A DNA stretch of 64,000 bases from Candidatus Gastranaerophilales bacterium (GTDB lineage: Bacteria; Cyanobacteriota; Vampirovibrionia; Gastranaerophilales; Gastranaerophilaceae): positions 1-64,000 of the forward strand of contig JAFQHZ010000032.1 of NCBI GenBank assembly GCA_017415185.1, written 5' to 3'. The notes under the pieces were generated by a model. The model was not told where the DNA came from, did no database searches, and worked only from the letters and a program-made list of their open reading frames with translations. Positions 4,067-48,852 of this stretch are shown piece after piece (within the stretch, counting starts at the first letter, position 1; every line of letters begins with the position of its first letter). The translations under genes were made by a program, and so were the position numbers.

Positions 4067-5314
4067 CTAACTAAGTGGATTTATAACAATACCTGATAAT
4101 AATTTCGGATAAAAATAAGTTGATTTTTGAGGCATACGAAGCCCAGCAGAAGATATATCGATAATATCTTTCATTTTTGGATACGCCATAATAAAGCAAG
4201 CGCTTGCAGAGCCATTTTTTACAGACTCAAACGAAACTTGTTCTTTTTTCTCATATTTTACGCCATTTTGAGCCATTAATTCTTCTTGGCTAAAATTCAA
4301 TTCGCCTTTTAAAATTACTTCATGCAAAACTGTCAAATCAAGATTTTGCAACTCTTTTGGTGTAGCTATTGATTCTTTTACACCTGCTTTTAATTTTAAA
4401 ACATAATATTTTTCGTCGTCTTTCAAAATCAAACCTGTTGTAATTTGATTTTTGTTTTCTTGTTCAATTTTTTCCAAAAACTCGTCTTTTTCAGTCATTT
4501 CAAGAATATCATAATGTTTTTTAACAGCAGACAAAATTTCGTCTTTTGAAAAATTCTTTTCGATGATTCTATGAGTAGGATAAATTACCAAATTTTCATC
4601 AGCTGCATTTGTAAAATAGCTCATAACATATTGAGCATATTCATTTTCTGGATGTTCCTTAGCATATCTCATAGAAGTTTCATATCTATGATGACCGTCT
4701 GCAATTAATAATGTTTTATCTGCTAAAACTTCAGATATAATTGCAACATCAGAAGGTTCATCAATTAAATATACAAGATTTTGAATGCCTAAATCATCAA
4801 CTATATCCATATATGGTTTTTGCGCTAAATATTTTGCAGCGACTTCATTTTCAATTCTTTGCGCTTTATCTTCGTAAACCATAAAAATTTGAGAATAAAA
4901 TGCACCTGTTGCAGATACTAATTTAAATCTATCCTCTTTTGGTCCGCCCATTGTAAATTCATGTGGCAAAACTTTCTTAGATTCAAAATCTTCAATTTTA
5001 TTTCTTGCAATGAAGCCTTTTCGCTCGATTAATTTGCCTTTTTCATTTTTATATTTTTGAACAATGTAAAATATTGCTGGTTTTTCTGTTTTGATTAAAA
5101 CTTCTTTTTCTTTCCAATCATTAAAACATAAAGCAGATTCAGCATATCTATCTTCACTTTTATTTAAAATTAAACGAACGCAATTGAATTCGCTTCTTGA
5201 GTATAATTCGTCTTGATATTTCTCATCAATTACATCATAAGGAGGCGCTACAACGTCTGTCATATCTACTTTTTCTTGATTATAAACTATTGCATTTAAT
5301 GGTAAAACTTCCAT
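4067..5314 (-). CDS. DUF1015 family protein
   Basis: 415 residues with the hallmark motifs of DUF1015: VAPPYDVI at 22-29 and a LLIADGHHRYETS block near residue 205. Archaeal relatives include a free-serine kinase, but a kinase role here would be a guess. No signal peptide or membrane segment is visible. A good ribosome site (GAGGAGGAAT on the minus strand) precedes the ATG. It is the first gene of the likely operon with the debranching enzyme and the DUF815 ATPase. Confidence 0.8.
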   Translation of the reverse strand: MEVLPLNAIVYNQEKVDMTDVVAPPYDVIDEKYQDELYSRSEFNCVRLILNKSEDRYAESALCFNDWKEKEVLIKTEKPAIFYIVQKYKNEKGKLIERKGFIARNKIEDFESKKVLPHEFTMGGPKEDRFKLVSATGAFYSQIFMVYEDKAQRIENEVAAKYLAQKPYMDIVDDLGIQNLVYLIDEPSDVAIISEVLADKTLLIADGHHRYETSMRYAKEHPENEYAQYVMSYFTNAADENLVIYPTHRIIEKNFSKDEILSAVKKHYDILEMTEKDEFLEKIEQENKNQITTGLILKDDEKYYVLKLKAGVKESIATPKELQNLDLTVLHEVILKGELNFSQEELMAQNGVKYEKKEQVSFESVKNGSASACFIMAYPKMKDIIDISSAGLRMPQKSTYFYPKLLSGIVINPLS

Positions 5315-46002: not shown

Positions 46003-46470
46003 TTGAAACAAACATTGTCTGTATTAATACCTTTAGCGTTAATTATTGCTTTGATTTTAAATCAAGCAATGCCTGCTGATGCAGCAAAGAAAAACGTTAA
46101 AAAGAAAGGCGTTGCCCAAGAAATAATTACAGATATGGCAACAAAAATCAATGGCTTAACGCAAAAAGTTTATGAAAGAGAACTTTTTACCCCCGAAGAT
46201 TCAAAATCATTAATCACATTAAAATTGCAACTTGATGAACACATGGACAATCTTCCTGAAGCAAGTTTTGCGCCTTTATATTATAAAATTGGTAACATTT
46301 ATAGATTAAGAGGGGAAGAAAAAGACGCAATTATTTGTTATCAAACAATCCTTGAAAACTTCTCAGACACAGCTTATGGACCAAAAGCAAGAGATGTTTT
46401 AACACAAATGGGTGTTGAAATAAGAGTGCCTGTTGAAGAAGAAGAGGATGTTTTTGAAGAAGAAATTTAA
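46003..46470 (+). CDS. Exported TPR-like protein
   Basis: 155 residues, TTG start with GGGGAG six bases ahead. An N-terminal hydrophobic span (SVLIPLALIIALILNQ) ending in ADAA acts as a signal peptide or anchor. The mature part carries about two helical pairs of TPR type (APLYYKIGNIYRLRGEEKDA), and ends in a very acidic tail. Probably a periplasmic protein-interaction factor. Confidence 0.75.
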   Translation: MKQTLSVLIPLALIIALILNQAMPADAAKKNVKKKGVAQEIITDMATKINGLTQKVYERELFTPEDSKSLITLKLQLDEHMDNLPEASFAPLYYKIGNIYRLRGEEKDAIICYQTILENFSDTAYGPKARDVLTQMGVEIRVPVEEEEDVFEEEI

Positions 46471-46493
46471 CACAAAAATTTTTTTTGTGATAA

Positions 46494-46626
46494 TATAATT
46501 TTAAAATTAAATAGGAAACAGGGGTGAAATTCCTCAACTGGGCCGCAGCCGTTATAGTCGGAAAACTCAAATTTTAAAGTATTTAGCGTGTCACTAATGC
46601 TTTATATGAATGCTGGTTATTTAACC
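46494..46626 (+). promoter_or_regulatory. Cobalamin-riboswitch-like leader
   Basis: GGAAACAGGGGTGAAATTCC (46514-46533), CAACTGGGCCGCAGCCGT (46535-46552) and AGTCGGAAAAC (46556-46566) follow, in order, the conserved cobalamin riboswitch blocks GGGAA..GGTGxAAxTCC, CNGxCCCGCxxCTGT and the B12-box start AGYCxGRARAC. Flanking AATTTTAAAATT and AAATTTTAAAG can close the P1 helix. GTGTCACTAATGC downstream resembles the GCCACTG part. It looks like a compact variant. It ends about 25 bp before the TTG start of an unknown gene, so control could be at translation. No intrinsic terminator was seen. Confidence 0.65.
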
Positions 46627-46651
46627 GCTCGGCTCAATAGAAAGGTCGATT

Positions 46652-47359
46652 TTGGTAGCACCAGCAGGAGCAGCAACAATACAAAACACAGGAAAATGTC
46701 CACATGGACTGCCAATTGGAGCATGCCCGATTTGCTCTGGTATGGGTGGCGGTGGCGGAATACGCCAAAATAAAGACAAACCAAGAGTTGCAGGGGAAAT
46801 GAGCTATAATGAATGCATGGCAGCTTGGATTAAAATTCAAGCTGCAAAAGAAGCAAAAATCGAAGCTCAAATTCAAAGGCTAGAAAATGCTCAAGCAATG
46901 CATTTACAACATCGAATGATAATGGGTCTTGAAAAAGCCGTTCAAAAATTAGACACTTTAGTCCAAAAATTAGACCAAATGCCCAAAATTATTGCAATTC
47001 CAGCTAAAATTTTAATCAATGTTTTGATTAAGCCGGTTTTAAATTTAATTTCCAATATTCCTCAAATAATTAATAGCATTCAAACTTTTATCTCTAACGT
47101 AAGAAATTTCATCACTTCAGTTGGAGAAAAACTCGCTTCTGTTTTTGGCGAAGTAAAAAACTTTATAGACGCAAAAATTTCACAACCAATTAAAAAAGCG
47201 ATTAAAAGTGTGCTTAATTTCTTTACCCAAGGGGAAGAAGACGAAAACGAAGAAGTTGAAAAATTAAAAGCAAGAGAAATTAAAAAAGTCCTCAAAGGAT
47301 TATTCAGAATAAAAGACAATAAAGAAAAAGAACTTGAAAAAGAAGAAGAAAAATTATGA
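46652..47359 (+). CDS. Unknown protein with Cys-rich N-terminus, downstream of cobalamin-type leader
   Basis: 235 residues, TTG start with AGAAAGG ahead. CPHGLPIGACPICSGMGGGG (16-35) holds Cys16, His18, Cys25 and Cys28, a possible metal site, then a glycine run. A helix rich in Ala/Lys/Gln (55-100) precedes long amphipathic helices with regularly spaced Ile/Pro (PKIIAIPAKILINVLIKPVL and on to about 190) and a charged C-terminus. No known B12-linked domain. It is co-transcribed with the next gene (4-bp overlap). Confidence 0.7.
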   Translation: MVAPAGAATIQNTGKCPHGLPIGACPICSGMGGGGGIRQNKDKPRVAGEMSYNECMAAWIKIQAAKEAKIEAQIQRLENAQAMHLQHRMIMGLEKAVQKLDTLVQKLDQMPKIIAIPAKILINVLIKPVLNLISNIPQIINSIQTFISNVRNFITSVGEKLASVFGEVKNFIDAKISQPIKKAIKSVLNFFTQGEEDENEEVEKLKAREIKKVLKGLFRIKDNKEKELEKEEEKL

Positions 47360-48852
47360 AACCAACCCAGTTAGACGCATTTAAAACAAAAACAAAGACG
47401 CAAATTTTAAGAACAAGCCATCCACAGAACGACACAATCAAGGGCGTGCTGCTGAACAATCACATTAAAAAAGATTCATTTGAGCGCATTGAGGACTTTG
47501 ACAGAATTTCAAACGAACTTTTAATTCCGAACAAACTGGAAATGCTAAAAGAAGAACAAAAAAAAGAAAAAAAAGAATCTTTTGATTACAAAAAAGCGCT
47601 AAAACCCGCAGCAATTGCAGCAGCAGCAATGCTTGGGGGAATGCTTGCAATTAGCTTAGGCGTTAAAAAATATTCTAATGTAATGGCAAACAAAAGCGAT
47701 ATAGTGCGTCCTGGAGATTTAGCAAGAAACATTAATATCTTAGAAGAACCTCACTTTGCAGCATATAGAATGTTAAGAGACCCAAATGCAAAAAATGTTG
47801 CAGGATTTATTGGCGTTTGTTTAATGAGCGCAGTCACTTTAGTTGCCAAAAATTTTATCGACGCTTCAAAAGAAATTTGGATTAAAAAACAAAACTGCGA
47901 TATAGAATATGACCTTCAAGAAAATTTGATTGAAGTTGAAGCGGAGGCATTTAAAGGCAAATTGAATATCGTTAATACTTTATTATCCGATACAACAAAA
48001 TATTTCAAAGAAACCTTATCATCACAAAAAACTGACTCAAAGCCAAACTTTAAAAGTTATTTAAGTTTTAAAGGCTCCAAAAAAGAAGAAAACACAAAAG
48101 AAAAAAATATAAATCCAAAAACAATTTTTGCAATTGGAGCAGGGGTTTTGAGTTTTGTTGGAATTTCTTTTGCGCTATTTAAAAACTATCAAAAAACATT
48201 GAAAAATCTTGATATTTTTGTTCAAAAATATGAACATAACGAAATAAGCGCCAAAATCATAAACGCAATAAATAACGATGATAAGGAAACTGCAATTAAG
48301 GAATTGAAAGATATTTTCAAGGTAATAAATGCAACAAATAAAACTATGGAAGATAATTTTTCGAAAATAAATGGAATTAGCACAGAAGAAATTCAAAAAG
48401 CAATAAGAGAAGTATCAGAAGCGCAAATTTATGCCCAAGCCCCTGAAGCGCTTGGTGGAATCAGCGAAAAAATTCAATATTATTGCTATATCAATGAAGA
48501 AAGAGGACATTTATACAATTGGATTTTGAATCCTGAAAATAAATTTAACGAATATTTATTCTTGTGTTTTAGTGCAATAAGCTCAATTGGTTACATAGGA
48601 AAGCAAGCAGCGGATGCAATTAGAGAAGTTATTGTAAACAAAGAAAATTCTAAAAGCGAGCTTGGGCTTAAAAAACGCCTCGTTGAAACTGAAATTAACA
48701 ATTTTAAAACAAAAAAGTTGAGTGCTGTTAATCCTCATATTGATACGTTTATTCATCAATTAGAACAAGGAAAACCAAAAGAAGAGCTAAAACAAATGGC
48801 GGAAAACATCTTAATCGAAATTAAAAATGGTCCGCCATACGTTTATTCATAA
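47356..48852 (+). CDS. Unknown membrane protein, second gene of the cobalamin-type operon
   Basis: 498 residues, not recognised. Polar N-terminus (about 1-75), membrane spans at about 80-98 (AAIAAAAMLGGMLAISLGV), near 150-170 and near 260-280, with charged regions between. YLSFKGSKKEE near residue 235 repeats the FKG motif, here internal. A helical domain occupies 285-400, a possible fourth span lies near 395-415, and the C-terminus is helical. ATGA overlap with the preceding gene implies translational coupling. Confidence 0.7.
   Translation: MKPTQLDAFKTKTKTQILRTSHPQNDTIKGVLLNNHIKKDSFERIEDFDRISNELLIPNKLEMLKEEQKKEKKESFDYKKALKPAAIAAAAMLGGMLAISLGVKKYSNVMANKSDIVRPGDLARNINILEEPHFAAYRMLRDPNAKNVAGFIGVCLMSAVTLVAKNFIDASKEIWIKKQNCDIEYDLQENLIEVEAEAFKGKLNIVNTLLSDTTKYFKETLSSQKTDSKPNFKSYLSFKGSKKEENTKEKNINPKTIFAIGAGVLSFVGISFALFKNYQKTLKNLDIFVQKYEHNEISAKIINAINNDDKETAIKELKDIFKVINATNKTMEDNFSKINGISTEEIQKAIREVSEAQIYAQAPEALGGISEKIQYYCYINEERGHLYNWILNPENKFNEYLFLCFSAISSIGYIGKQAADAIREVIVNKENSKSELGLKKRLVETEINNFKTKKLSAVNPHIDTFIHQLEQGKPKEELKQMAENILIEIKNGPPYVYS

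Follow-up and report, generated by a model that had tools for sequence, protein, structure and literature searches.

A conserved operon downstream of an AdoCbl-II riboswitch in Gastranaerophilales: a candidate for cobalamin acquisition

Operons of the BtuBCDF type encode TonB receptor, FecCD permease, ABC ATPase and periplasmic binding protein domains, and btuBCDF-like operons in the bacterial lineage considered here can carry the same riboswitch as the locus described below. The ECF-CbrT system is also known to import cobalamin, and BacA/Rv1819c and BtuM are further known cobalamin importer types (PMC10960864, PMC12713380). Among these, BtuM is a Cys-bearing membrane protein able to process cobalamin (PMC12713380). 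The closest described RNA is the AdoCbl-II riboswitch (RF01689, clan CL00101).

The locus lies in a window of 64,000 nucleotides (the whole stretch of DNA that was analysed) from a Candidatus Gastranaerophilales genome, and consists of a riboswitch leader followed by genes for two proteins, here called P1 and P2. None of the four BtuBCDF-type domains was found in P1 or P2, which have no domain in common with a Btu protein, and most genomes with P1-P2 lack both a BtuC-type permease and a TonB receptor. If P1-P2 serves in cobalamin acquisition, as we propose, it would share its substrate with ECF-CbrT and BacA/Rv1819c. However, EcfT is missing from all 97 genomes sampled from the family, and BacA/Rv1819c has an ABC-transporter fold whereas P1 and P2 lack an ABC domain. 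The likeness to BtuM is one of description, in that BtuM, a small transporter and decyanase of cobalamin, is a membrane protein with a functional Cys and no ATPase of its own. By the same kind of description, P2 is larger and duplicated, and the invariant Cys residues reside in P1 rather than in P2.

The AdoCbl-II leader and its expression platform

The initial annotation read the leader as a cobalamin-type riboswitch with core and B12-box-like sequences, and both of these (GGTGAAATTCC and AGTCGGAAAAC) are present where they were said to be. A search against Rfam bears this reading out, as the full-length RF01689 (AdoCbl-II) model matches positions 46497-46574 of the + strand with 40.9 bits (gathering score 36.5; E-value 2.5e-6 for the 64-kb window and 1.4e-8 for a 361-nt stretch). 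No other RF01689 match in the 1.87-Mb genome exceeds the cut-off. The leader therefore falls in the AdoCbl-II family and not in the large RF00174 type, and it conserves P4, P5, P6, the B12-box-like segment and the L5-L13 kissing loop. The complementary flanks that had been proposed to form the P1 helix (a riboswitch stem, distinct from protein P1) were only partly borne out, since the arms pair but the pairing is partial in the covariance-model alignment. A chance match is ruled out by the score above the Rfam threshold together with a position that is kept in 83/83 P1 loci. On this sequence evidence the leader is a genuine cobalamin riboswitch of the AdoCbl-II class, with cobalamin as the presumed ligand assigned by class. 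The riboswitch class is already known, but the genes that it controls here are new and have no known relatives.

Structural support for the leader is provided by the covariance model and by covariation among relatives, whereas the window leader taken alone folds unremarkably and no better than its shuffles (z 0.49). Among 35 diverse leaders, 87% of the cells in core helices pair, compared with 78.5% when shuffled, and double-sided changes occur in 74 cells versus 24.8 when shuffled, with lower values in slid controls. The compensatory changes sit in P4 (95% paired, 4/5 pairs changed on both sides) and in the L5-L13 kissing loop (82.5% paired, 3/5 pairs changed on both sides), although the figure for the kissing loop is biased towards a good result because its columns were picked by inspecting the same alignment. 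In a separate L5/L13 re-pairing test, 2/1000 shuffles were as good as the real leaders, a result that is no more than suggestive given that the leader sequences are related. P5 is paired in 100% of cases, P6 is uninformative on structure because it is invariant, and pairing in the outer helix reaches only 58%.

The region between the aptamer and P1 (46575-46651, + strand) can be read from the leaders of relatives as a probable expression platform, in which a P13-type hairpin, with a loop that in relatives pairs with L5, is followed by a hairpin over the P1 Shine-Dalgarno sequence. This Shine-Dalgarno sequence is paired in 99/108 leaders, compared with 55/108 when the upstream bases are shuffled, which points to translational control of P1 by the leader. 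Thus, the P4/P5/P6 core with compensatory change, the kissing loop and the expression platform expected of RF01689 are all found, with weaker support for the platform in the window copy, where the hairpin covering the Shine-Dalgarno sequence is short. Directly before the aptamer lies a promoter-like consensus match, TTAACA-16-tgGATAAT (46467-46494, + strand), with a TG ahead of the second hexamer. We regard this element as no more than suggestive because the region has fewer promoter-like sites than its shuffles. At another locus (L213), a long insert of near-identical repeats of ~80-90 nt separates the aptamer from the P1 start.

Proteins P1 and P2 and variants of the operon

P1 (46652-47359, + strand) is an ORF of 235 amino acids with a TTG start, and P2 (47356-48852, + strand) is an ORF of 498 amino acids that overlaps it by 4 nt. 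Neither belongs to a known family. The initial annotation had described this overlap, a Cys-rich protein with amphipathic helices and a multi-span membrane protein, and each of these descriptions was upheld. Specifically, the CPHGxPxG..CPxC motif of P1 is invariant, and after it come a linker rich in Gly, one more invariant Cys and the amphipathic helices, whereas P2 has four predicted transmembrane segments, two long helices and a conserved C-terminus. An internal duplication in P2 is clear (hhalign probability 96.9 with E 1.4e-10, whereas five shuffles gave 0.4 at most).

No relative of P1 or P2 was found in Pfam, NCBIfam or PDB sequences, and these searches likewise yielded no known transporter fold or transporter relative for the operon proteins. 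Their Pfam matches were all below the cut-off or scattered over single members, and profile searches of PDB sequences gave weak helical matches only. AlphaFold modelled both proteins with modest confidence (mean pLDDT 67 each), and a fold search of the PDB with these models returned no significant match. Judged by the libraries searched, the P1-P2 operon appears to be new.

The two-gene operon that was originally described is present in the window, but this picture is incomplete because most relatives carry a third gene, P3. This gene comes next after P2 in 49/69 loci with enough sequence, and is not found there in the window's genus. P3 proteins are marked by SPNIQTFLAGIYRKTxxPDAFGPL and FDPNEEIGGAILSY and are without a Pfam family (L115-L131, L291:4151-4705 and L262-L265). 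In genera g25 and g30, P1 is present without P2, and duplicated P3-like genes occupy the place of P2. Several lineage-specific proteins, those at L262-L264 among them, have in common a short N-terminal pattern (e.g. MKIQAITNPIxKxxFKG), which is possibly a sorting or interaction signal.

Conservation of the operon and cobalamin supply in the lineage

P1 was detected in 84/97 family genomes, one of which (G062) gave a short fragment match that was set aside, leaving 83 P1 loci. In 83/83 of these loci an RF01689 match precedes P1 on its own strand at a distance of 73-232 nt, a count that accepts matches down to E 0.001, some of them below the gathering score. The homologous genes are therefore preceded by the same leader, and neither of the two results that the initial annotation had named as refuting, the lack of a significant Rfam match and homologous loci without the leader, was obtained. 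Moreover, the aptamer core was recognized by a simple sequence pattern upstream of 124/130 distinct P1 genes, and by eye upstream of the other six. The lack of a P1 match in one genome (G255) is probably due to its contig, which ends directly after the aptamer. Within the order, families f3 and f4 likewise have the arrangement riboswitch-P1-P2, and in a sample of 289 genomes from across the class P1 is listed solely inside the order. Homologues in named records come from Candidatus Gastranaerophilales (gut Melainabacteria), which are relatives of the cyanobacteria. A viral or plasmid origin was considered and set aside, as relatives were not found in the viral contigs or plasmids searched. A literature search, with most subscription journals outside its reach, found no report linking Gastranaerophilales or Melainabacteria with a cobalamin riboswitch.

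Eight of the 97 family genomes lack the riboswitch; P1 and P2 are missing in 8/8 of them and NrdJ, the B12-dependent class II ribonucleotide reductase, in 6/8. In genus g26 (G026, G061 and G088) and in G016 and G077, the riboswitch, P1, P2 and NrdJ are all missing, as if the regulon had been lost as a unit.

The initial annotation knew of no B12 link for the locus, and such a link is now provided by other targets of the same riboswitch class. Further AdoCbl-II copies in the family precede nrdD-nrdG, a btuB-btuC-btuD-btuF-like operon and a B12-binding radical SAM gene. The nrdD-nrdG genes encode the anaerobic, B12-independent ribonucleotide reductase, and NrdD and NrdG2 score above NCBIfam cut-offs. 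For the BtuB-like and BtuF-like proteins, vitamin B12 models are among the best matches, yet these fall below the NCBIfam cut-offs. Several genomes (G018, G054, G081 and, in the wider sample, G311) have no P1, and the riboswitch precedes a btuB-like gene instead.

De novo B12 synthesis and ECF import were ruled out for the family, as CobS and EcfT (CbiQ) were each found in 0/97 genomes by searches that were positive in 10/14 control genomes. FecCD (BtuC type) occurs in 11/97 genomes and a TonB receptor in 12/97, namely the same 11, in which the two genes adjoin, and G004. These counts leave 85 genomes with neither, in an importer survey that covered the BtuC type, TonB receptor and EcfT. BacA/Rv1819c and BtuM types lie outside this survey, which is the main gap in the argument that no known importer is present. 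NrdJ is found above the cut-off in 67/97 genomes, including 62 of the 85 that have neither a BtuC type nor a TonB receptor. P1 and NrdJ tend to occur together: among genomes at least 90% complete, those with P1 comprise 58 with and 17 without NrdJ, whereas those without P1 comprise 1 with and 7 without (Fisher p 5e-4, in a test that ignores phylogeny). One genome (G080) has NrdJ in the absence of the riboswitch, P1 and BtuC type, which makes it a counter-example unless its assembly has a gap.

The window's genus has no full NrdJ, but proteins with B12-binding domains are present. The window genome contains an NrdJ-like ORF of 432 amino acids (L271:2543-3841, G000:C37) that is far shorter than NrdJ, and weak matches of a similar kind occur in G057 and G021. 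It also has its own btuB-btuC-btuD-btuF-like cluster (L254:4492-9035, G000:C5) without a recognisable riboswitch core, and therefore P1-P2 is not its sole candidate importer. The same cluster carries the riboswitch in g19, g38 and f3. A simple replacement of BtuBCDF by P1-P2 is weakened as an idea, since both systems occur together in the window genome, in G038 and in f3 genomes.

Possible functions of P1-P2

Cobalamin acquisition is the most economical function for a riboswitch-controlled operon that is conserved through a family of B12-using bacteria which do not synthesize the cofactor and in most cases have no recognised importer. Given that CobS and EcfT are absent, that a BtuC type or TonB receptor occurs in 12/97 genomes and that NrdJ occurs in 67/97, P1-P2 is the conserved core of the Gastranaerophilales cobalamin regulon and the best candidate for a new acquisition route. 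As to the direction of switching, a function in import and what each protein does, we infer the following. When plentiful, cobalamin would bind the aptamer and lock the L5-L13 kissing loop, and the locked loop would hide the P1 Shine-Dalgarno sequence and stop the coupled translation of P1 and P2. Both proteins would be made when the cofactor is scarce. P2 would then form the duplicated, four-transmembrane membrane part, and P1 may be a partner that binds metal, or cobalamin itself, via its invariant Cys/His motif.

This account as a whole, in which a true AdoCbl-II riboswitch represses P1-P2 and the most likely job of P1-P2 is cobalamin acquisition, is our best explanation, and our confidence in it is evenly divided. 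More tentatively, and with doubt somewhat outweighing confidence, we propose that P1-P2, along with P3 in most relatives, constitutes a new type of cobalamin acquisition system that is unrelated to BtuBCDF, ECF, BtuM and BacA and that serves as the main B12 entry of most Gastranaerophilales. Of the uptake, storage or salvage roles suggested in the initial annotation, the riboswitches of B12 genes and the rarity of Btu and ECF importers favour uptake as the probable function. Points that count against acquisition are that P1-P2 has no obvious way across the outer membrane, the lack of a known transporter fold or relative, the modest AlphaFold models, the presence of btuBCDF alongside P1-P2 in the window genome, G038 and f3 genomes, the genome G080 and the occurrence of P1 without P2 in g25 and g30.

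P1-P2 might instead spare the cell its need for cobalamin, in the way that NrdDG stands in for NrdJ, while leaving cobalamin itself untouched, and it would therefore also be made when cobalamin is scarce. The precedent is close at hand, since nrdDG, a B12-independent isozyme, is the other common riboswitch target in the lineage. However, an isozyme swap is expected of soluble enzymes, whereas P1-P2 resembles a membrane protein with an amphipathic Cys/His partner, and the operon is nearly universal, also among genomes that lack NrdJ. To our knowledge, there is also no B12-dependent process for P1-P2 to replace, and we consider this role rather unlikely.

Perhaps P1-P2 handles cobalamin or cobalt inside the cell, acting at the inner membrane to traffic, store, reduce or decyanate cobalamin that has been imported by other means. 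For this, P1 could use its invariant Cys/His motif as a binding site for metal or cobalamin, and BtuM offers a precedent for a Cys-bearing membrane protein that processes cobalamin (PMC12713380), but most genomes would still need another, new importer, which makes this reading quite unlikely in our estimation. That the leader senses another ligand, as had been raised initially, or is a cobalamin riboswitch co-opted for an unrelated function, as proposed in Mycobacterium tuberculosis (PMC12713380), would fit the lack of a known cobalamin motif in P1 and P2 but is improbable, because the same riboswitch family controls nrdDG and btu-like genes in the lineage, its association with P1 holds in 83/83 loci, and the eight genomes without it all lack P1 and P2, six of them lacking NrdJ as well.

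The preferred reading, cobalamin acquisition, bears on how a major, largely uncultured gut lineage gets an essential cofactor that it apparently does not make itself. The search for its B12 supply is narrowed to one conserved, testable operon that is present in ~85% of the sampled family genomes. If P1-P2 imports B12, it would represent a new transporter class, and would help to predict cofactor sharing in the gut and to annotate hundreds of genomes. The locus also illustrates how a riboswitch can be a means of assigning function to genes without known relatives.

Two further loci outside the family may encode an analogous system. In G101 (family f9), an AdoCbl-II riboswitch is followed by genes for a hydrophobic protein and then a Gly-rich protein of 226 amino acids (L288:2414-4159 and 4166-4846), and in G099 (family f7) the riboswitch precedes a gene for a hydrophobic protein of the same sort (L289:1650-3170). 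These hydrophobic proteins (506-581 amino acids) contain LHxLDSxxS-like repeats and differ from P1 and P2.
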